Origin: an uncultured bacterium
Lineage (GTDB): Bacteria; CALINM01
Assembly (NCBI GenBank): GCA_938045315.1
Contig: CALINM010000195.1
Span: 1-6,843 of the forward strand
Direction: 5' to 3'
DNA length: 6,843 nucleotides
Shown one piece after another: positions 1 to 6,843 of this stretch (its first letter is position 1; the number at the start of each line of letters is the position of its first letter). Position numbers and translations under genes: made by a program. The notes beneath the pieces are model-generated. The model saw only the letters and a list, made by a program, of their open reading frames with translations. It did no database searches and had not been told where the DNA came from.

Positions 1-547
1 TTTGGATAAAATTATTGAATGTGCTGATAGATGTAAGAGAATTGTTGAAAGCTTGCTTATTTATTCAAGGCAGAAACCTGCAAGTAAATCTCTGGAATCT
101 TTAGATAATGTAATTGAGAGAACAATAGATCTTGTGGGATATAACCTCAAAAAAAATAACATAGTACTGGAAAAAGTGTTTGAAAATGTACCTATAATGT
201 TTATAGACGGACAACAATTTCAGCAAGTATTGATAAATATAATTTTAAATGCTCAGGAATCAATCATTGCTGCAAAAAGGGAAAAGGGAAATATAAAGAT
301 CCATACCTATTTTGACTCAAAATCAAAAAAAGCTTATATAAAAATATCTGACAATGGTACTGGGATTAAAAAAAGTGTTTTAAACAAAATTTTTGATCCC
401 TTCTTTACTACAAAAGCTTTTGGTGAGGCTTCAGGATTGGGGCTATCGATAGCACTTGGAGTTGTAAAAGAACATGGGGGAAATATTCACGTAGAAACGA
501 AATTAAATGTTGGCACAACATTTGTTATTGAACTACCAGTAGAATAA
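1..547 (+). CDS. Sensor histidine kinase, C-terminal part (5' end outside the window)
   Basis: This is the catalytic half of a two-component sensor kinase that would phosphorylate a response regulator. Counting from the TTG codon at base 2, residues 2-24 (DKIIECADRCKRIVESLL and onward) resemble the second helix of the HisKA dimerisation domain. The phospho-accepting histidine and any sensor region therefore lie upstream of the window, and this TTG is an internal Leu codon, not a start. The HATPase_c domain is complete: N-box with N79 and N83 (INIILNAQES), G1 box DNGTG at 117-121, F-box FDPFFTT at 131-137, G2 box GLGLS at 145-149, and a closing GTTFVIELP strand at 171-179. The layout is that of NtrB/AtoS/ZraS-like kinases, which usually pair with sigma-54 activators. 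The regulator at 3998-5419 is the obvious candidate partner, although five stop codons and four genes separate them. The gene ends 22 bases before the preferred motA start, so co-transcription is likely. Confidence 0.93.
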   Translation, partial: LDKIIECADRCKRIVESLLIYSRQKPASKSLESLDNVIERTIDLVGYNLKKNNIVLEKVFENVPIMFIDGQQFQQVLINIILNAQESIIAAKREKGNIKIHTYFDSKSKKAYIKISDNGTGIKKSVLNKIFDPFFTTKAFGEASGLGLSIALGVVKEHGGNIHVETKLNVGTTFVIELPVE

Positions 548-554
548 ATTAATA

Positions 555-572
555 AAAGGATATATGGATATG
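555..572 (+). promoter_or_regulatory. Ribosome binding site that decides the motA start
   Basis: AAAGGA at 555-560 is followed by two in-frame ATGs, at 564 and 570. The first would leave only three bases of spacing and the second nine. E. coli MotA begins MLILLGYLVV, which lines up with MFTIIGFLVV read from the ATG at 570. Both spacing and alignment favour 570. Confidence 0.6.
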
Positions 573-1421
573 TTTACAATAATTGGTTTTCTTGTTGTTT
601 TTGGTGCTGTTATTGGTGGTTTTATAATGGAGAACGGGAACCCTTTAATACTCTTTATACCTGCAGAATTTATAATTATTTTTGGTGCTGCAACTGGAGC
701 TTTTTTAATTTCATCACCACCTTCAGTTGTATCTATAGTTGTTAAATCCATAGGAAAAATTTTCTCAGGTAAGGAAAACAAAAAGGAAGATTATCTCCAA
801 CTTCTGAATTTATTGTTTCAATTATTTACAAAAATCAGAAAAGAAGGGTTAGTTTCAATAGAATCAGATATAGAGAATCCACAAAATAGCGCTATATTTA
901 AGAATTTTCCTTCTATACTTTCAAATCATCATTTAATAACTTTTGTATGTGACAATTTAAAAGTAATTGTTTCAACCAATGTTCCTGCATATGAATTAGA
1001 AGGGCTTATCGAGCTTGAATTAGAAACACATCACCACCATGCTTTAATCCCAGCACATAGTGTTGCTAAGATTGCTGATGCTTTACCAGGGCTTGGTATT
1101 GTTGCTGCAGTTCTGGGAGTTGTTTTAACAATGGGAAAGATTGACCAACCTCCAGCAGTTTTAGGGCATAGTATTGGTGCTGCTTTGGTTGGGACATTTA
1201 TGGGGGTTTTGGCTTGTTATGGATTTGTTGGACCAATAGCTACAAATTTAGAACATAGAGCAAATCATGAATCCATAATGTTTCAGGTAATAAAAGTAGC
1301 ACTTGTATCATTTGTAGGTGGTTCTGCACCCCAGATGGCTGTTGAGTTTGGAAGACGAGCGATTCCAGGGGATGAAAGACCATCTTTTGAAGAATTGGAA
1401 AACAGAATACGGGGTAAATAA
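570..1421 (+). CDS. motA: Flagellar motor stator protein MotA, E. coli type
   Basis: MotA is the inner-membrane stator subunit that, with MotB, converts ion flow into flagellar torque. Numbering from the alternative ATG at 564 (285 residues), there are hydrophobic segments at about 4-22, 30-50, 172-190 and 200-224, matching the four MotA transmembrane helices with a large cytoplasmic loop between the second and third. The loop keeps the charged pair that meets FliG in E. coli (R90 and E98), here R92 and E100 with the same 8-residue spacing, followed by SDIENP. The two functional prolines (E. coli P173 and P222) correspond to P175 in DALPGLGIVAAVLG and P224 in GFVGPIAT. The C-terminus has the family's VEFGRR...ERPSFEELE. 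The ETHHHHALIPAHS run at 154-166 is histidine-rich, as is often seen in this subfamily. Length is close to the 295 residues of E. coli MotA. I prefer the start at 570 over 564. The stop overlaps the motB start by one base. Confidence 0.96.
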   Translation: MFTIIGFLVVFGAVIGGFIMENGNPLILFIPAEFIIIFGAATGAFLISSPPSVVSIVVKSIGKIFSGKENKKEDYLQLLNLLFQLFTKIRKEGLVSIESDIENPQNSAIFKNFPSILSNHHLITFVCDNLKVIVSTNVPAYELEGLIELELETHHHHALIPAHSVAKIADALPGLGIVAAVLGVVLTMGKIDQPPAVLGHSIGAALVGTFMGVLACYGFVGPIATNLEHRANHESIMFQVIKVALVSFVGGSAPQMAVEFGRRAIPGDERPSFEELENRIRGK

Positions 1422-1423
1422 TG
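1411..1423 (+). promoter_or_regulatory. motA/motB stop-start overlap with ribosome binding site
   Basis: GGGG at 1411-1414 lies six bases before the motB ATG, inside the last motA codons. The motA TAA and the motB ATG share base 1421. This fits translational coupling, which would keep the MotA and MotB supply linked. Confidence 0.7.
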
Positions 1424-2200
1424 ACTGAACAAAAATCAATTATTATTAAACGAGTTAAAAAAAAGAAAGGCGAAGGAAATCATGGTGGTTCATGGAAAGT
1501 GGCATATGCTGATTTTGTCACTGCAATGATGGCGTTTTTTCTACTTATGTGGTTGATAACTATGGTCTCACCAGAAAAAAGGGCGAGGGTTGCAAGTTAT
1601 TTTAAGTATTATGCGATTTTTGATAAAAGTGGTATTTCTATGTTTGAAGGTGTAGGTAACAAGATTATTAATATTGGTGGAGAGGGGGTTAATATACCAG
1701 AAGAAAAGGGTAATCCAGGTAAGATAAAACAAAAAGAACCTAATCAGATAAAGGAAGAGATACAGGAAAAAATAGAAAAAAAATTTAATAATATAAAAAG
1801 CCAGGTGATAATTGATGTATTCGGGAATTCAGTGAGGATAGAAGTAATAGATAGTGAAGGGAATCCGATTTTTCCTGTAGGCGATTCTAGTTTTACTGAT
1901 GTGGGTAAACAAATTTTAAAAGAGATTTGTGATAGTCTTGCTGATTTTGATAATAAAATAATAATTGAAGGTCACACAGATGCTCTAAGTTATAGATCTA
2001 ATAAATATTCTAATTGGGAACTATCAACAGACAGAGCTTCTGCAGCGAGGAGATTTATGGAATCTAATGGTATTAATCCTGATAGGATATCAATGGTAGT
2101 TGGTTATGCTGCAACGAAACCTTTAATTCATGATAATCCTAATGATCCAAGAAATAGAAGAGTTAGTATTGTTATAAATTATGATGATCAATTGAAGTAA
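1421..2200 (+). CDS. motB: Flagellar motor stator protein MotB (OmpA-like peptidoglycan-binding domain)
   Basis: MotB is the stator subunit that carries the ion-binding aspartate and anchors the stator to peptidoglycan. The basic N-terminus (KRVKKKKGEG, 10-19) is cytoplasmic. A single transmembrane helix follows at about 28-48, in SWKVAYADFVTAMMAFF, with the ion-carrying aspartate at D31 (D32 in E. coli). The AYAD context looks like proton-type MotB rather than sodium-type PomB, but this is an inference. Residues about 51-65 fit the periplasmic plug region, and 100-125 is a charged Lys/Glu-rich linker. The OmpA-like domain has EGHTDA at 183-188, NWELSTDRA at 198-206 (R205 in the peptidoglycan-contacting position) and NRRVSI at 245-250. 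At 259 residues it is shorter than E. coli MotB (308), mainly because it lacks the long C-terminal tail. The next gene starts five bases after the stop. Confidence 0.96.
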   Translation: MTEQKSIIIKRVKKKKGEGNHGGSWKVAYADFVTAMMAFFLLMWLITMVSPEKRARVASYFKYYAIFDKSGISMFEGVGNKIINIGGEGVNIPEEKGNPGKIKQKEPNQIKEEIQEKIEKKFNNIKSQVIIDVFGNSVRIEVIDSEGNPIFPVGDSSFTDVGKQILKEICDSLADFDNKIIIEGHTDALSYRSNKYSNWELSTDRASAARRFMESNGINPDRISMVVGYAATKPLIHDNPNDPRNRRVSIVINYDDQLK

Positions 2201-2205
2201 TTTTT

Positions 2206-2874
2206 ATGATTATAGCTGAAATAAATAAAATTTTGGAGAAATTTTTACAAGATAATTTACCTATTATTCTTATGGGAAATACCCAAGATGCAAGAAGATT
2301 AATAACGTTTAGATTTTTAGGTTATATTAAAGAGATTAAAGAGAAAAATTATATAGTTTTTCACAAATTTAAACCCCTTTTACCATACTTTGTTTTTAAA
2401 AACGAACCGAGACTAAAAGCTATTTTTAGCATATCACCTCAAAATGGAATTGAAACGGTCTTACAAATCAAAGAAATTGATACAGATGAGATCTATACAG
2501 ATTTTCCTGAAAATTTTTACGTATCAAGACCAATAAGAATTGAACCAAATCCTAAAAAGCCAGTTTTGTTATACGTTTTAAGCAAAGATGATCCAACAAA
2601 TTTGTGTGATGTTATTAATATTAGCGAAAAGGGCGTGTGTTTTATAAGTCAGAGAGATTATATAGTTAATGGCGAATATGGGTTTATGATCATTTTACCA
2701 GATCAGTTGGGTGTTATTACATGTTATGGTGAAATAAAATATAAAAAAATAGAAAAATTTGGCTATTTTAGGTACGGAGCTGAGCTATTTAATCATGCAA
2801 AAGATAGAGCAGTGTTATCAAAATATATCATGATTAGGGAAAAAGAAATAATCGAGTTATTAAGGGGCGGTTAA
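2206..2874 (+). CDS. PilZ-domain protein with degenerate RxxxR motif, YcgR-like layout
   Basis: This is a soluble 222-residue protein with no signal peptide or membrane segment. Residues about 36-105 form a beta-rich region (GYIKEIKEKNYIVFHKFKP) that fits the N-terminal PilZN-type domain of YcgR-like flagellar brake proteins. A PilZ domain follows at about 107-215. Its second motif is intact as N138-I-S-E-K-G143 followed by VCF, and the family strand FRYGAEL is at 188-194. The first motif, normally RxxxR, reads S107-R-P-I-R111. Aligned with the downstream paralogue (RKFVR), the first arginine is replaced by serine, so c-di-GMP binding may be weak or lost. Position directly behind motB suggests a role at the motor, as for YcgR/FlgZ in other bacteria (inference). 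The ribosome binding site is poor (GAAG at 2194-2197, inside the end of motB), so translation may depend on read-on from motB. It could equally control another c-di-GMP process. Confidence 0.85.
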   Translation: MIIAEINKILEKFLQDNLPIILMGNTQDARRLITFRFLGYIKEIKEKNYIVFHKFKPLLPYFVFKNEPRLKAIFSISPQNGIETVLQIKEIDTDEIYTDFPENFYVSRPIRIEPNPKKPVLLYVLSKDDPTNLCDVINISEKGVCFISQRDYIVNGEYGFMIILPDQLGVITCYGEIKYKKIEKFGYFRYGAELFNHAKDRAVLSKYIMIREKEIIELLRGG

Positions 2875-2876
2875 TG
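2864..2876 (+). promoter_or_regulatory. pilZ/pilZ stop-start overlap with ribosome binding site
   Basis: GGGG at 2864-2867 lies six bases before the ATG at 2874, and the TAA of the first PilZ gene shares base 2874 with that ATG. The geometry is identical to the motA/motB junction, so the two PilZ proteins are probably made as a coupled pair. Confidence 0.7.
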
Positions 2877-3938
2877 AATATTTGGACTACTAAAAAAATC
2901 AAAGATGTTATCTTAGGGGATCTTTCTAATATAAATTTATTGAACAATGATACCTTTGAGCTGGATTTCTTTAAAAAAGCTAATTTCCATGACCTTATTA
3001 TTTTGGAATATTATGAGGGTTACAGGAATTTTGTTAGTAATTACAATTTTAAAGGTTATTTAGGATTAATTATTTTATGTGATTTTAAAAAGGGTAACTT
3101 CAGCTTTATTCCTTCTCTTAAAACAGCGATATTAGATGTGAATAAAATTGGAATAGAAAAGACCAAGGAGTTAATTAGTTTTATCATAAATTTGCACTCA
3201 AAAAGAATTAAAAACTTAGATATTTATGCAAATAAAGAGGGTAAATTTGAAGAAGCACATTTAGATAACTTTATAGAAATTAAATCACAAATAGTAGAGA
3301 AGCTAAGTTATTGTTTTAGTAACAAACTAAATATAATAATAACAATTCAAGTTCTCGAAGAGGGGAGGAAAGTAAACGCAAGGGGTACTGGTTATATAAA
3401 GGATTTAAATAATGATTTTTTCATAATCGAGAAGATAAGACCAAATCAAATCTGTTATAGGATTAAACCTGAAGAACCATTATTATTTACTTTTCCAGAT
3501 AAGGAATGTTTTTATGAGGCTAAAGGTAGAATAATAAAAAAAACAGATGATTTAATTTTTGTTGATATTCCCAATACTATTAAATTAGAGAGAAGAAAAT
3601 TTGTCAGGGTTGAACCAAATTTAAAAAATCCAGTAAAGGTTTACATTCATATTCCTGGCGAAGAAAATGAAGTAATAGATTGTATTGATATTAGCACTTT
3701 AGGAATCTCTTTTTATTCTCAGAGAGAGCTCCCTTTAAATGGTATATATGTTTTTGGATTAAAAACACCTTATAATGATAGATTTATTATAAGTGAGGGT
3801 ATAATAAGAAATAAAGAACTTATTGATGAAAAGTTTAGGTATGGCATAGAGCTGGACCTTTCTGAAAAGGAGATTGATATTGTTGCCGATTATATTAGAA
3901 AAAGAGAGGTGGAAATATTAGATCTTCTAAAAGATTAA
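2874..3938 (+). CDS. Longer PilZ-domain protein with intact c-di-GMP motif and unassigned N-terminal domain
   Basis: This 354-residue cytoplasmic protein is a paralogue of the preceding gene with about 140 extra residues at the front. The shared part starts near 172: GYIKDLNNDFFIIEKIRP matches GYIKEIKEKNYIVFHKFKP upstream, and this PilZN-like region runs to about 236. The PilZ domain follows, with ERRKFVR at 239-245 giving a proper RxxxR (R241 and R245). Next come D272-I-S-T-L-G277, then SF, and FRYGIEL at 321-327. Both proteins end in a similar amphipathic helix (IRKREVEILDLL here). Every signature residue expected for c-di-GMP binding is present. The first 140 residues match no domain I can name with confidence. 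They show alternating strand/helix character (DLIILE at 40-45, GLIILCD at 64-70, AILDVNKIGIEKTKELISFI at 85-104), loosely like a receiver fold that has lost its active site. The likely role is c-di-GMP-dependent control of the flagellar motor, inferred from domain layout and from sitting in the motAB string. Confidence 0.86.
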   Translation: MNIWTTKKIKDVILGDLSNINLLNNDTFELDFFKKANFHDLIILEYYEGYRNFVSNYNFKGYLGLIILCDFKKGNFSFIPSLKTAILDVNKIGIEKTKELISFIINLHSKRIKNLDIYANKEGKFEEAHLDNFIEIKSQIVEKLSYCFSNKLNIIITIQVLEEGRKVNARGTGYIKDLNNDFFIIEKIRPNQICYRIKPEEPLLFTFPDKECFYEAKGRIIKKTDDLIFVDIPNTIKLERRKFVRVEPNLKNPVKVYIHIPGEENEVIDCIDISTLGISFYSQRELPLNGIYVFGLKTPYNDRFIISEGIIRNKELIDEKFRYGIELDLSEKEIDIVADYIRKREVEILDLLKD

Positions 3939-3950
3939 AAATAGAATTTC

Positions 3951-3964
3951 GTCAAACTCTTGAC
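3951..3964 (+). promoter_or_regulatory. Inverted repeat overlapping the -35 box (candidate operator)
   Basis: GTCAA-ACTC-TTGAC is a perfect 5-bp inverted repeat with a 4-base spacer, and its right arm forms most of the TTGACA -35 element. A protein bound here would block RNA polymerase. The same half-site with the same spacing recurs at 5471-5484. The right arm could be explained by the promoter alone, so only the left arm is independent evidence. Confidence 0.45.
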
Positions 3965-3988
3965 AATCCATTTTAATTAAATTATTAT
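3960..3988 (+). promoter_or_regulatory. Sigma-70-type promoter for the response regulator gene
   Basis: TTGACA at 3960-3965, a 17-base spacer and TATTAT at 3983-3988 make a near-consensus housekeeping promoter, with an A/T-rich stretch upstream. Transcription should begin around 3994-3998, at or within a few bases of the regulator ATG at 3998. It gives the regulator a supply separate from the stator/PilZ string, although read-through from that string is also possible because I see no terminator between them. Confidence 0.75.
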
Positions 3989-3997
3989 GTTCTACAA

Positions 3998-5419
3998 ATG
4001 AAAAAAGTGCTAGTAATAGATGATGATGTTTATGTAAGAGATGCATTGTCAAATATCCTTACTCAAAAGGGTTTTCTTGTTGACAAAGCGGAAAATGGAT
4101 TAGAGGGTATAAAGCTTATAAAAGAAAAAGACTATGATGTTTTGCTTGTTGATCTTGTGATGCCCGAAATGGGAGGAGTCGATTTTTTAAGAGAATTAAA
4201 TAGAGAAAATGTTGATGTCCCATCAATAGTAATCACAGCTTTTGCTTCAGTAGACACAGCAGTAGAGGCTATGAAATTAGGTGCATTAGATTACATAACA
4301 AAGCCCTTTAATATTGATGAGCTATTAGTAATAATTGAAAAAGCGATAAAAGTCTATGAGCTAAAGAAAGAAAATATCAATTATAGAAGGCAGCTTCAGA
4401 AAATACATGGATTTGAGAATATAGTTGGCAATTCACCGAAAATTCAGGAAATTTTCTCACTCATTTCCAAAGTCGCTGACAGTGATGCAACGATATTATT
4501 AACAGGGGAGTCCGGGACGGGAAAAGAGCTAATCGCTAAATCGATACATTATATGAGTTATAGATCCAAATATCCATTTGTACCGATTAATTGTGGTGCC
4601 ATACCTAAAGAGTTACTGGAATCTGAGTTTTTTGGTTATGAAAAAGGTGCTTTTACAGGTGCTGTGGCTACAAAAAAAGGAAGAGTCGAATTGGCTGATA
4701 AAGGTACCCTTTTTTTAGATGAGATAGGTGAACTTATTCTTCCCTTACAGGTTAAGCTACTTAGGTTCTTACAGGAAAAGGAATTTGAAAGAGTTGGCGG
4801 TGGAAAAACACTAAAGGTAGATGTTAGAATAATAGCAGCTACTAATAGGGATCTGGAAAAGGATGTTTTGGAGGGCAAATTTAGAGAAGATTTATTTTAT
4901 AGATTGAATGTTATTCCTATTCATATACCCCCATTAAGGGAGAGAAAAGAAGATATACCATTACTATTAAATTATTTTATATCCAAGTTTTGCAAAAAAA
5001 GAAAAAGGCCAGTTCTGACAATCAGCAAGGAGGCGATGAGATGTCTTGAAAATTACTACTGGCCTGGTAATATTAGAGAGTTGGAAAATTTATGCGATAG
5101 ACTTTCAGTACTTGTTTCGGGAAATAAGATTGAATTATATGATTTGCCAGAAAAATTTATTACAAATAATAAAGCGATGGGTGGATGTGTAACAAAACTG
5201 GATATAACAGCAAGTGATTTCCTTTTGCCCGAAAATGGCTTTGATTTGAATAAAGTGATTCATGATTTTGAGAGGAAAGCAATTGTAGAAGCTCTTAAAA
5301 AAGCGGGCGGAGTTAAAAGTAAGGCAGCAACTTTACTGGGACTAAATAGGACAACTCTTCTTGAAAAGATGAAAAAAATGCATATCCCCTTTGATACTGG
5401 ATCTTCTATCAATAATTAA
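3998..5419 (+). CDS. NtrC-family sigma-54-dependent response regulator
   Basis: This is a complete 473-residue activator of sigma-54 RNA polymerase. The receiver domain (about 1-118) has acidic residues D8 and D9, phospho-acceptor D52, T80 and K102. The AAA+ domain (about 142-370) has Walker A GESGTGKE at 170-177, the sigma-54-contacting loop GAFTGA at 217-222, Walker B LFLDE at 238-242, candidate arginine fingers R296 and R302 in FREDLFYRL, and sensor II WPGNIRELEN at 355-364. A Fis-type helix-turn-helix closes the protein (about 426-463, with KSKAATLLGLNRTTLLEKMK). All catalytic residues are present, so it should be active. The start MKKVLVIDDD is typical of the family, but no Shine-Dalgarno sequence precedes it and the predicted transcription start almost coincides with the ATG. 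The probable partner is the kinase at 1-547 and the probable target is the sigma-54 promoter at 5530-5546. Context resembles FleR/FlrC-type flagellar regulators, but the sequence alone does not prove a flagellar target. Confidence 0.95.
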   Translation: MKKVLVIDDDVYVRDALSNILTQKGFLVDKAENGLEGIKLIKEKDYDVLLVDLVMPEMGGVDFLRELNRENVDVPSIVITAFASVDTAVEAMKLGALDYITKPFNIDELLVIIEKAIKVYELKKENINYRRQLQKIHGFENIVGNSPKIQEIFSLISKVADSDATILLTGESGTGKELIAKSIHYMSYRSKYPFVPINCGAIPKELLESEFFGYEKGAFTGAVATKKGRVELADKGTLFLDEIGELILPLQVKLLRFLQEKEFERVGGGKTLKVDVRIIAATNRDLEKDVLEGKFREDLFYRLNVIPIHIPPLRERKEDIPLLLNYFISKFCKKRKRPVLTISKEAMRCLENYYWPGNIRELENLCDRLSVLVSGNKIELYDLPEKFITNNKAMGGCVTKLDITASDFLLPENGFDLNKVIHDFERKAIVEALKKAGGVKSKAATLLGLNRTTLLEKMKKMHIPFDTGSSINN

Positions 5420-5468
5420 TCTTTTAAATTTTCTTTTTAATTATCTAATTTTTTTAGTTTTATAAAAA

Positions 5469-5486
5469 ATGTCATTTTTATGACAT
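5469..5486 (+). promoter_or_regulatory. Perfect 7-bp inverted repeat, candidate upstream activating site
   Basis: ATGTCAT-TTTT-ATGACAT is an 18-base perfect dyad with a 4-base centre. It is centred near 5477.5, about 78 bases upstream of the transcription start predicted for the sigma-54 promoter. That is a normal distance for an NtrC-type enhancer site, and the size suits a Fis-type helix-turn-helix dimer. Its core GTCAT-N4-ATGAC matches the repeat at 3951-3964. The natural candidate ligand is the regulator encoded just upstream. It is not followed by a T-run on the + strand, so a terminator role is unlikely. Confidence 0.6.
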
Positions 5487-5529
5487 ATGATGATTATTAA
5501 AAAAATCAATTTTATCAGTTAGTTATAAA

Positions 5530-5546
5530 CGGCACAGTTATTGCAT
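5530..5546 (+). promoter_or_regulatory. Sigma-54 (RpoN) promoter
   Basis: CGGCACA-GTTA-TTGCAT matches the RpoN consensus TGGCACR-N4-TTGCW except for C in place of the first T. The invariant GG (5531-5532) and GC (5543-5544) are separated by exactly 10 bases. Predicted transcription start is about 5556. It lies directly downstream of a sigma-54 activator gene and points into the TPR protein gene, which strongly supports function. Confidence 0.85.
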
Positions 5547-5557
5547 AACATAATGTT

Positions 5558-6843
5558 GTGATAGGGGTAAAATTTTTAAATAAAAAAATTGTTACATTAA
5601 GAAATATTTTGGTTTTTTTAATGATTTTTTTTACGAATTTGTATGGTCAAAATAATGTCTACTCTGAGTATGAGACTTTGTTAAGATTAATAGAACTTAA
5701 AAAATATGATGAAGTAGTAAATTTTATTGAGAGCACAGAACCTTTAAGTAGAAAATTTGACTTTTATAAGCTTTCTGCAGATTTTTTCATGAAAATTGGC
5801 AAATATTTAAAAGCTATTGATTACTATAAGTTAGCATTCATTAATTCACAAAATTCTAAAGATAGAGATTATTCATTATTAAAAAGAGGAGAATGTTATA
5901 TAAACATAAGAAACTATGTGGAAGCAAAGCTAATTTTAACTAATTTGATAAAAAATAATCCCCAAACTTTTTATCTTAACGACGCCTATCTTCTTCTTGC
6001 TCAAGCATACGAGGCATTAGGGGATGCTCAGGAAGCAATGAAATATTATGAAAAGCTCCAGCCAACTGTATCTGCTCAAATATTAAAAGCAAAAGCTTAT
6101 GTGAGGTTAAGTAGATTTGATGAAGCAATAAAAATTTTTGAAGGGATTTTTAACACTGAGAAAGATATAGTTTCCAGCCAAAAGGATATTTACTATTATT
6201 TTGGAGAAGCACTTAGGAATAAAGGCAGATTCAAAGAAGCCAAAACATATCTTTCAGGTGCAAAGAGAGTTGAAGGATTCAGTGGAAAATCGAGTTTATC
6301 CTTAGGAAAAATATCCTATGAAGAAAAAGATTTTGATGCAGCTATTAAATATTTTAATGAAGTAATATCAGGTAAAGATGGAGAAGCGAAAGGAGAAGCA
6401 TATTACTATCTGGGTTTGATTTATTACGGGCGAGGAGAAAAAAATCAAGCCATAGAAAAGTTTACTAAGCTAAGAAATGATTTTCCCGTCTCAAAGAGCT
6501 ACAAGAAGGCAACAATTATGTTATCAAAGATCATGAGACAAAAAAAGGAATATGAAACTGCAACCAAATATTTAGATGAATTGTTGAAAAGTAACTATGA
6601 TATTGAGGTTATTAATGAAATTGAGAATGTATTGAATGAAATGTTAGATAGTAACGGAAAAATCAACATGAAATATTTTGATAAATATGCACCTTACCTT
6701 TTAAAGTTCAAAAGGCATGCTTTGTTAATTAAATTTTGTGAAAAAGTTCTGGATGAAAAGAGAATTAATGTTTTAAATAGAATCTTTCTTTCAGGTAGTG
6801 TTGAAGAAAAAAAGCAGTCAGCAACATTACTTTTTAATTATTA
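5558..6843 (+). CDS. Exported TPR-repeat protein (3' end at or beyond the window edge)
   Basis: The reading frame is open from 5549 to the right edge, giving 428 codons from the GTG at 5558. The window ends with TA after a Tyr codon, so the gene may stop at the next base or continue. From the GTG start, residues 9-30 look like a signal peptide: basic KKIVTLR, hydrophobic NILVFLMIFFTNLYG, and possible cleavage near residue 30. It lacks a lipobox cysteine. About eight TPR-like helix pairs follow, near 69-95, 105-135, 142-168, 174-200, 210-236, 244-270, 280-308 and 316-345. Clear examples are AYLLLAQAYEALGDAQEAM and YYYLGLIYYGRGEKNQAIE. The mature protein should be a periplasmic or envelope scaffold for protein contacts. 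The start is uncertain: ATG at 5621 would cut the signal peptide in half, and neither start has a good ribosome binding site. With a sigma-54 promoter in front and motAB nearby, a flagellar-motor role is possible but unproven. Confidence 0.85.
   Translation, partial: MIGVKFLNKKIVTLRNILVFLMIFFTNLYGQNNVYSEYETLLRLIELKKYDEVVNFIESTEPLSRKFDFYKLSADFFMKIGKYLKAIDYYKLAFINSQNSKDRDYSLLKRGECYINIRNYVEAKLILTNLIKNNPQTFYLNDAYLLLAQAYEALGDAQEAMKYYEKLQPTVSAQILKAKAYVRLSRFDEAIKIFEGIFNTEKDIVSSQKDIYYYFGEALRNKGRFKEAKTYLSGAKRVEGFSGKSSLSLGKISYEEKDFDAAIKYFNEVISGKDGEAKGEAYYYLGLIYYGRGEKNQAIEKFTKLRNDFPVSKSYKKATIMLSKIMRQKKEYETATKYLDELLKSNYDIEVINEIENVLNEMLDSNGKINMKYFDKYAPYLLKFKRHALLIKFCEKVLDEKRINVLNRIFLSGSVEEKKQSATLLFNY

Follow-up and report, generated by a model that had tools for sequence, protein, structure and literature searches.

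A FleQ/FlrA-type regulator gene with candidate operators on both sides in an uncultured bacterium

Genes and predicted control sites in the window

The window analyzed here is one whole contig of 6843 bp from a 1.86 Mb draft genome (G000) in 244 contigs. Its genes and predicted control sites are collected in Table 1. The central gene encodes a protein with all the features of an NtrC-type response regulator, namely a receiver, an AAA+ domain with GAFTGA and a Fis-type helix-turn-helix (HTH). Receiver residues D8, D9, D52, T80 and K102 are all present, leaving the phospho-acceptor site intact. Upstream lie flagellar stator genes and two genes that we describe as PilZ/YcgR-like. The first of these gives a PilZ score of 18.8 bits, under the Pfam cut-off of 22.5. 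The product of the second is 30% identical to the first and has no Pfam match; RKFVR and DISTLG motifs were recognized in it by eye.

Table 1. Coordinates of genes and predicted control sites in the window.
Feature	Position	Strand	Remarks
Histidine kinase gene, C-terminal part	2..547	+	Possible partner of the regulator
motA (564-1421) and motB (1421-2200), flagellar stator genes	564..2200	+	
Two PilZ/YcgR-like genes (2206-2874, 2874-3938)	2206..3938	+	Candidate c-di-GMP effectors
Upstream FleQ/FlrA-type box GTCAAACTCTTGAC	3951..3964	.	47 nt 5' of the regulator ATG; right arm coincides with the -35 element
Predicted sigma-70 promoter of the regulator gene	3960..3988	+	TTGACA (3960-3965), 17 nt, TATTAT (3983-3988); 11/12 consensus
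Regulator gene, 473 aa	3998..5419	+	Receiver (REC) with Asp52, AAA+ with GAFTGA, Fis-type HTH LGLNRTTLLEKMKKM (HTH_8); FleQ/FlrA clade
Downstream FleQ/FlrA-type box GTCATTTTTATGAC (5471-5484) in 7-bp dyad	5469..5486	.	GG of the sigma-54 promoter 60 nt further on
Predicted sigma-54 promoter CGGCACAGTTATTGCA	5530..5545	+	-24 GG at 5531, -12 GC at 5543
Putative target gene, TPR-repeat protein	5558..6843	+	Signal-peptide-like start; contig ends inside the gene

A sequence-only reading of this DNA had reported the same inverted repeat, GTCAW-N4-WTGAC, in both promoter-bearing gaps around the regulator gene, and had put the chance expectation well under one copy. Both statements hold. A pattern scan of the window returned these two sites as exact matches and no others, while window shuffles gave an expectation of 0.03 and none of 200 shuffles contained two sites. 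The core that is kept in the comparisons below is GTCA-N6-TGAC, with the inner W dispensable; for this core, base composition predicts 0.0004-0.0013 copies in the two gaps summed (197 bp). Two further details of that reading were also confirmed, in that the downstream copy lies inside a perfect 7-bp dyad, ATGTCAT-N4-ATGACAT, and the upstream copy overlaps the -35 element of the near-consensus predicted promoter of the regulator gene, the two having TTGAC in common.

Predicted transcription starts lie 2-4 nt before the start codons of the regulator and TPR genes (window 3983-4000 and 5531-5560), and approximately on the ATG in most of the related loci L284-L294. Judged from these positions, the messages of the regulator and TPR genes, and those of most of L284-L294, may be leaderless or nearly so.

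Motif counts and conservation of placement

The sequence-only reading had also proposed, as a check, to scan the genome and see whether the repeat is concentrated 60-150 bases upstream of sigma-54 promoters. In the window's own genome no such concentration is seen. GTCA-N6-TGAC occurs there nine times, as against nine for the reversed control, and the seven sites other than those in the window are all in coding frames. Among ten strict sigma-54 promoters in this genome, the one preceded by a perfect box is the window's own, and none of the other nine has one. Since the box is found at only one of these ten promoters, the regulator may control few genes in this genome; it is also possible that other sites are degenerate. 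For G001 and G002, the remaining members of the family, there is no motif excess over the control, and in twelve other genomes the counts scatter on both sides of it. We therefore rejected genome-wide counting as evidence, and since the motif is not enriched in the window's genome, the signal must be carried by placement and conservation rather than by number. As described below, a near-equivalent scan for sigma-54 promoters in 61 genomes of one order did give the anticipated result.

Four of the seven coding-frame sites are within frames read as flgJ, flhA, flhG and cheA (L001 4336, L003 2237 and 5582, L005 6919). There is no obvious sigma-54 promoter near these four, and their occurrence is possibly due to chance. 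As to FleN/FlhG, the partner ATPase of FleQ, an flhG-like frame was read by eye downstream of flhA- and flhF-like frames on G000:C183.

The best matches of the regulator in G001 and G002 are about 47-48% identical, and none of them carries its HTH type in an HTH search at E 1e-6, which precludes footprinting within the family. The nearest relative was found in L036 (JAOAGB010000076.1), where the regulator is 87% identical to that of the window. Its downstream box, GACAAATTTATGAC, has one core mismatch (GACA for GTCA) and lies at the identical distance of 60 nt from a sigma-54 promoter, ACGGCACAGTTGTTGCATA, which is near-identical to that of the window and in the same place. This comparison covers the downstream box alone, as the contig breaks inside the regulator gene, before its start. 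Beyond the promoter, the genes are in turn those for the TPR protein, a histidine kinase and a response regulator of the NtrC type, and then comes a frame read as flgB; in this order the operon resembles fleSR or flrBC. L036 carries the deposited name Thermodesulfovibrio sp. and comes from a bin of 1.1 Mb, while the genome of the window falls into a different group; either the name of the bin or the grouping may be wrong.

After L036, the window protein is most closely related to those of L215 (G127) and L198 (G264), whose genes likewise have boxes on either side. We examined 61 genomes of the order to which these two belong, and in 18 of them such a regulator was found at E 1e-8. A perfect box was found directly upstream in all 18, in each case over the predicted sigma-70 -35 or -10 element, and a further one no more than 200 bp past the stop codon in 9 of the 18, where shuffles gave means of 0.05 and 0.013, respectively. 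Comparison of the gaps among relatives, which had been proposed as a check, favors the earlier reading. The upstream boxes fall into two placements. In the first (L295, L297-L301) the box is about 45 nt before the start codon and its right arm is the -35 element, as in the window, where the distance is 47 nt. In the second (most of L284-L294, and L296) the box touches the ATG and contains CATATT, a likely -10 element. The two-sided arrangement of the window is found again in L284, L285, L287, L289-L291, L297, L298 and L301. Several relatives among L286-L294 and L296 are only 334-367 aa long and seemingly have no receiver, as is the case for DVU2894 of Desulfovibrio vulgaris; the upstream box is retained in these.

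These placements bear on what the regulator would do at its own promoter. One alternative to repression is that the regulator binds both boxes but that the upstream one serves activation or mere titration, with transcription of the regulator gene coming mainly by read-through from motA, motB and the pilZ genes. Such read-through is suggested by the short distance of 59 bp between the preceding stop codon and the regulator start and by preceding genes that abut or overlap, and FleQ is known to act both as an activator and as a repressor, according to its ligand and to where the box lies (PMC10723142). On the other hand, the near-consensus TTGACA-N17-TATTAT promoter argues against dependence on read-through, and a box on the predicted -35 or -10 in every one of the 18 regulators occupies the classical place for repression. 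We consider this alternative unlikely.

Downstream placement was addressed with a composite pattern, GTCA-N6-TGAC with GGCAY-N5-TTGC 38-56 nt after it, which was searched for in the same 61 genomes. There were 12 matches, none of them inside the flanking long frames, and no match in the reversed control. Nine lie 3' of a gene for an activator with an RTTL-type recognition helix and 5' of one for a protein resembling the window TPR protein; eight of these are within 36 nt of the activator stop codon and the ninth (L302) is at 435 nt. Another match (L309) follows a histidine-kinase-like frame and precedes a gene for a protein similar to the TPR target. The last two (L303 and L304) are between frames read as flgE and fliL; they lie about 16 kb from the regulator gene of the same genomes and would represent a second, distant target. 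Distances from box to GG are either 56-60 nt, which includes the 60 nt of the window, or 66-67 nt, the two classes being about one helical turn apart. The gene after the regulator encodes a TPR protein in 8 of the 10 relatives tested.

Two other readings of the repeats can be weighed against these results. If the pair had arisen by chance, one palindrome would have been forced by the TTGACA element and the other would have fallen in an AT-rich spacer; the genome-wide count, no higher than the control, agrees with this. Yet the expectation for the two gaps given above is very low, and the two-sided arrangement in nine other loci together with the 12 composite matches against none in the control contradict it, making coincidence highly improbable. 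The downstream palindrome might instead be the transcription terminator of the regulator gene and no protein site, considering that it lies 54 bp past the stop codon and has a T-rich centre. However, no terminator-like sites were found in 3900-5650, the AT-rich stem has two G-C pairs only and no trailing T run, and the spacing between it and the sigma-54 promoter is conserved. We give this explanation very little credence.

The regulator clade and its recognition helix

The AAA+ domain of the regulator shares 107 of 168 residues (64%) with that of FleQ and the HTH 21 of 46 (46%). In a tree of 150 AAA+ domains, from which receiver and HTH were left out, the regulator and FleQ fall into a clade of 31 tips with a support of 0.998, and every member of this clade has the RTTL helix. 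The recognition helix of the regulator, within its Fis-type HTH, is the FleQ-type RTTLxEKM. These sequence comparisons place the regulator among the sigma-54 activators of the FleQ/FlrA clade. It does not appear to be a FleQ in the strict, c-di-GMP-responsive sense. The c-di-GMP-binding residues of FleQ, R144, R185, E330 and R334 (PMC10723142), are replaced by E, K, Y and K, and its receiver is predicted to be phosphorylatable.

An association of helix and box was sought more widely. Proteins with a similar HTH were searched in 386 genomes, for the most part a single one from each family, and 80 loci were taken; with the loci from the other homologue searches these gave 148 activators from many families, which were then compared for boxes in flanks of 300 bp. 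Perfect boxes were found for 12 of 45 activators with the RTTL helix and for 1 of 103 without it (Fisher p = 2e-6). That no more than 12 of the 45 have one at this distance counts against the operator reading. The spacing is specific, since the RTTL set has 16 sites with N6 and four for spacings 2-5 and 7-10 summed, as compared with 0.18 in shuffles. The earlier reading had cautioned that the right arm of the upstream copy is partly dictated by TTGACA. This concern is answered in part by the left arm, as GTCA-N5 precedes 5 of 10 TTGAC...TATAAT-like promoters of RTTL genes, as compared with 0 of 8 before the genes of the other activators; one of the five (L215) is doubtful, its -10 match being inside the gene.

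A variant helix, RTTLLARM, was seen in the response regulators at L200 1287 and L231 2955. Each of them has a perfect box directly 5' of its gene, and in each case a second response regulator gene follows.

The boxes could also be sites of a different sigma-54 activator, such as the second response regulator further along the operon. There are about 40 related activators in the window's genome, and the operon of L036 indeed contains a second NtrC-type regulator. But the box tracks the RTTL helix, and an HTH of the FleQ type was found in one protein only of this genome at E 1e-6. Furthermore, throughout one order the RTTL class is accompanied by a box at the promoter of the regulator gene itself. 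Binding by a different activator therefore seems quite improbable to us.

Proposed circuit and comparison with known systems

From the boxes, clade, helix-box association, geometry and gene order described above, we infer binding, repression, activation and a phosphorylation input as follows. A dimer of the regulator would bind each GTCA-N6-TGAC box via its Fis-type HTH. At the upstream box it would cover the -35 element of its own sigma-70 promoter and block it, a negative autoregulation; in sequence, the putative operator overlaps the predicted core promoter both in the window and in the 18 regulators of the order. The downstream box, at 60 nt from the -24 GG, would be an upstream activator site from which the AAA+ ring could contact sigma-54 RNA polymerase through the GAFTGA loop and open the promoter. 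This would turn on the TPR gene and, if the operon continues as in L036, the genes for a histidine kinase and for the second response regulator as well as flgB, making the circuit equivalent to that from FleQ to fleSR or from FlrA to flrBC. The input would likely be phosphorylation of Asp52, not c-di-GMP binding as in FleQ. We hold it very probable that both boxes are operators of the regulator, serving autorepression at sigma-70 and activation of the next, sigma-54-dependent flagellar operon. The sequence-only reading had arrived at the same operator with the same two roles, and the clade, the link of helix and box, the 18 upstream boxes and the 12 composite matches against none all support it at the level of sequence.

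These observations suggest that DNA-binding specificity can be proposed from sequence alone for a large uncharacterised group of activators, mostly in uncultured bacteria, in which RTTLxEKM would read GTCA-N6-TGAC. They also suggest that one operator and one feedback circuit are common to master regulators of flagella in bacteria distant from Pseudomonas and Vibrio, while the inputs may differ, a phosphorylatable receiver in the window protein versus c-di-GMP in FleQ. A broader proposal is that the FleQ/FlrA code and the two-sided circuit, on the own core promoter and about 56-67 nt before a sigma-54 promoter, extend across many families and orders and are older than the proteobacterial versions, phosphorylation being likely the older input and c-di-GMP a later one in the FleQ line. 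We put this forward tentatively, leaning slightly towards doubt. With inputs that differ, the origin of c-di-GMP control in FleQ becomes testable.

What the earlier reading overlooked is that box and circuit type are already known. Judged by its sequence, the window repeat is the published FleQ/FlrA box. The FleQ box, GTCaNTAAAtTGAC, consists of inverted repeats GTCAAT and ATTGAC with two bases between them (PMC10723142, PMC6120874), and the Vibrio cholerae FlrA site before flrBC is GTCA-N6-TGGC (PMC4641369). Sites of the form yGTCA-N6-TGACr lie upstream of all orthologues of D. vulgaris DVU2894, for which autoregulation was proposed (PMC4641369). The FleQ consensus proved a poor predictor of ChIP peaks in P. 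fluorescens (PMC6120874). On direct autoregulation by FlrA or FleQ, the papers available to the search gave nothing decisive.

The window regulator resembles FleQ of Pseudomonas aeruginosa in its AAA+ domain, its RTTLxEKM helix, its box and its predicted activation of a sigma-54 flagellar operon. It differs in the replaced c-di-GMP residues and in having Asp52, whereas the receiver of FleQ is not phosphorylatable (PMC10723142). It is like FlrA of V. cholerae in the type of box and as a putative master activator of an operon that, if continued as in L036, has a histidine kinase and a response regulator. Unlike the FlrA system, the window operon starts with a TPR gene, and the residues of the regulator give no expectation of c-di-GMP control. 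DVU2894 has no N-terminal domain and carries GAFTHA, and its surroundings yielded no conserved sigma-54 promoter (PMC4641369), whereas the window protein is a full response regulator with one box on each side of its gene. The box, the clade and a predicted autoregulation are therefore known from these systems; new are a full response-regulator version lacking the c-di-GMP residues, the two-sided arrangement with its fixed geometry, and the spread over many families.
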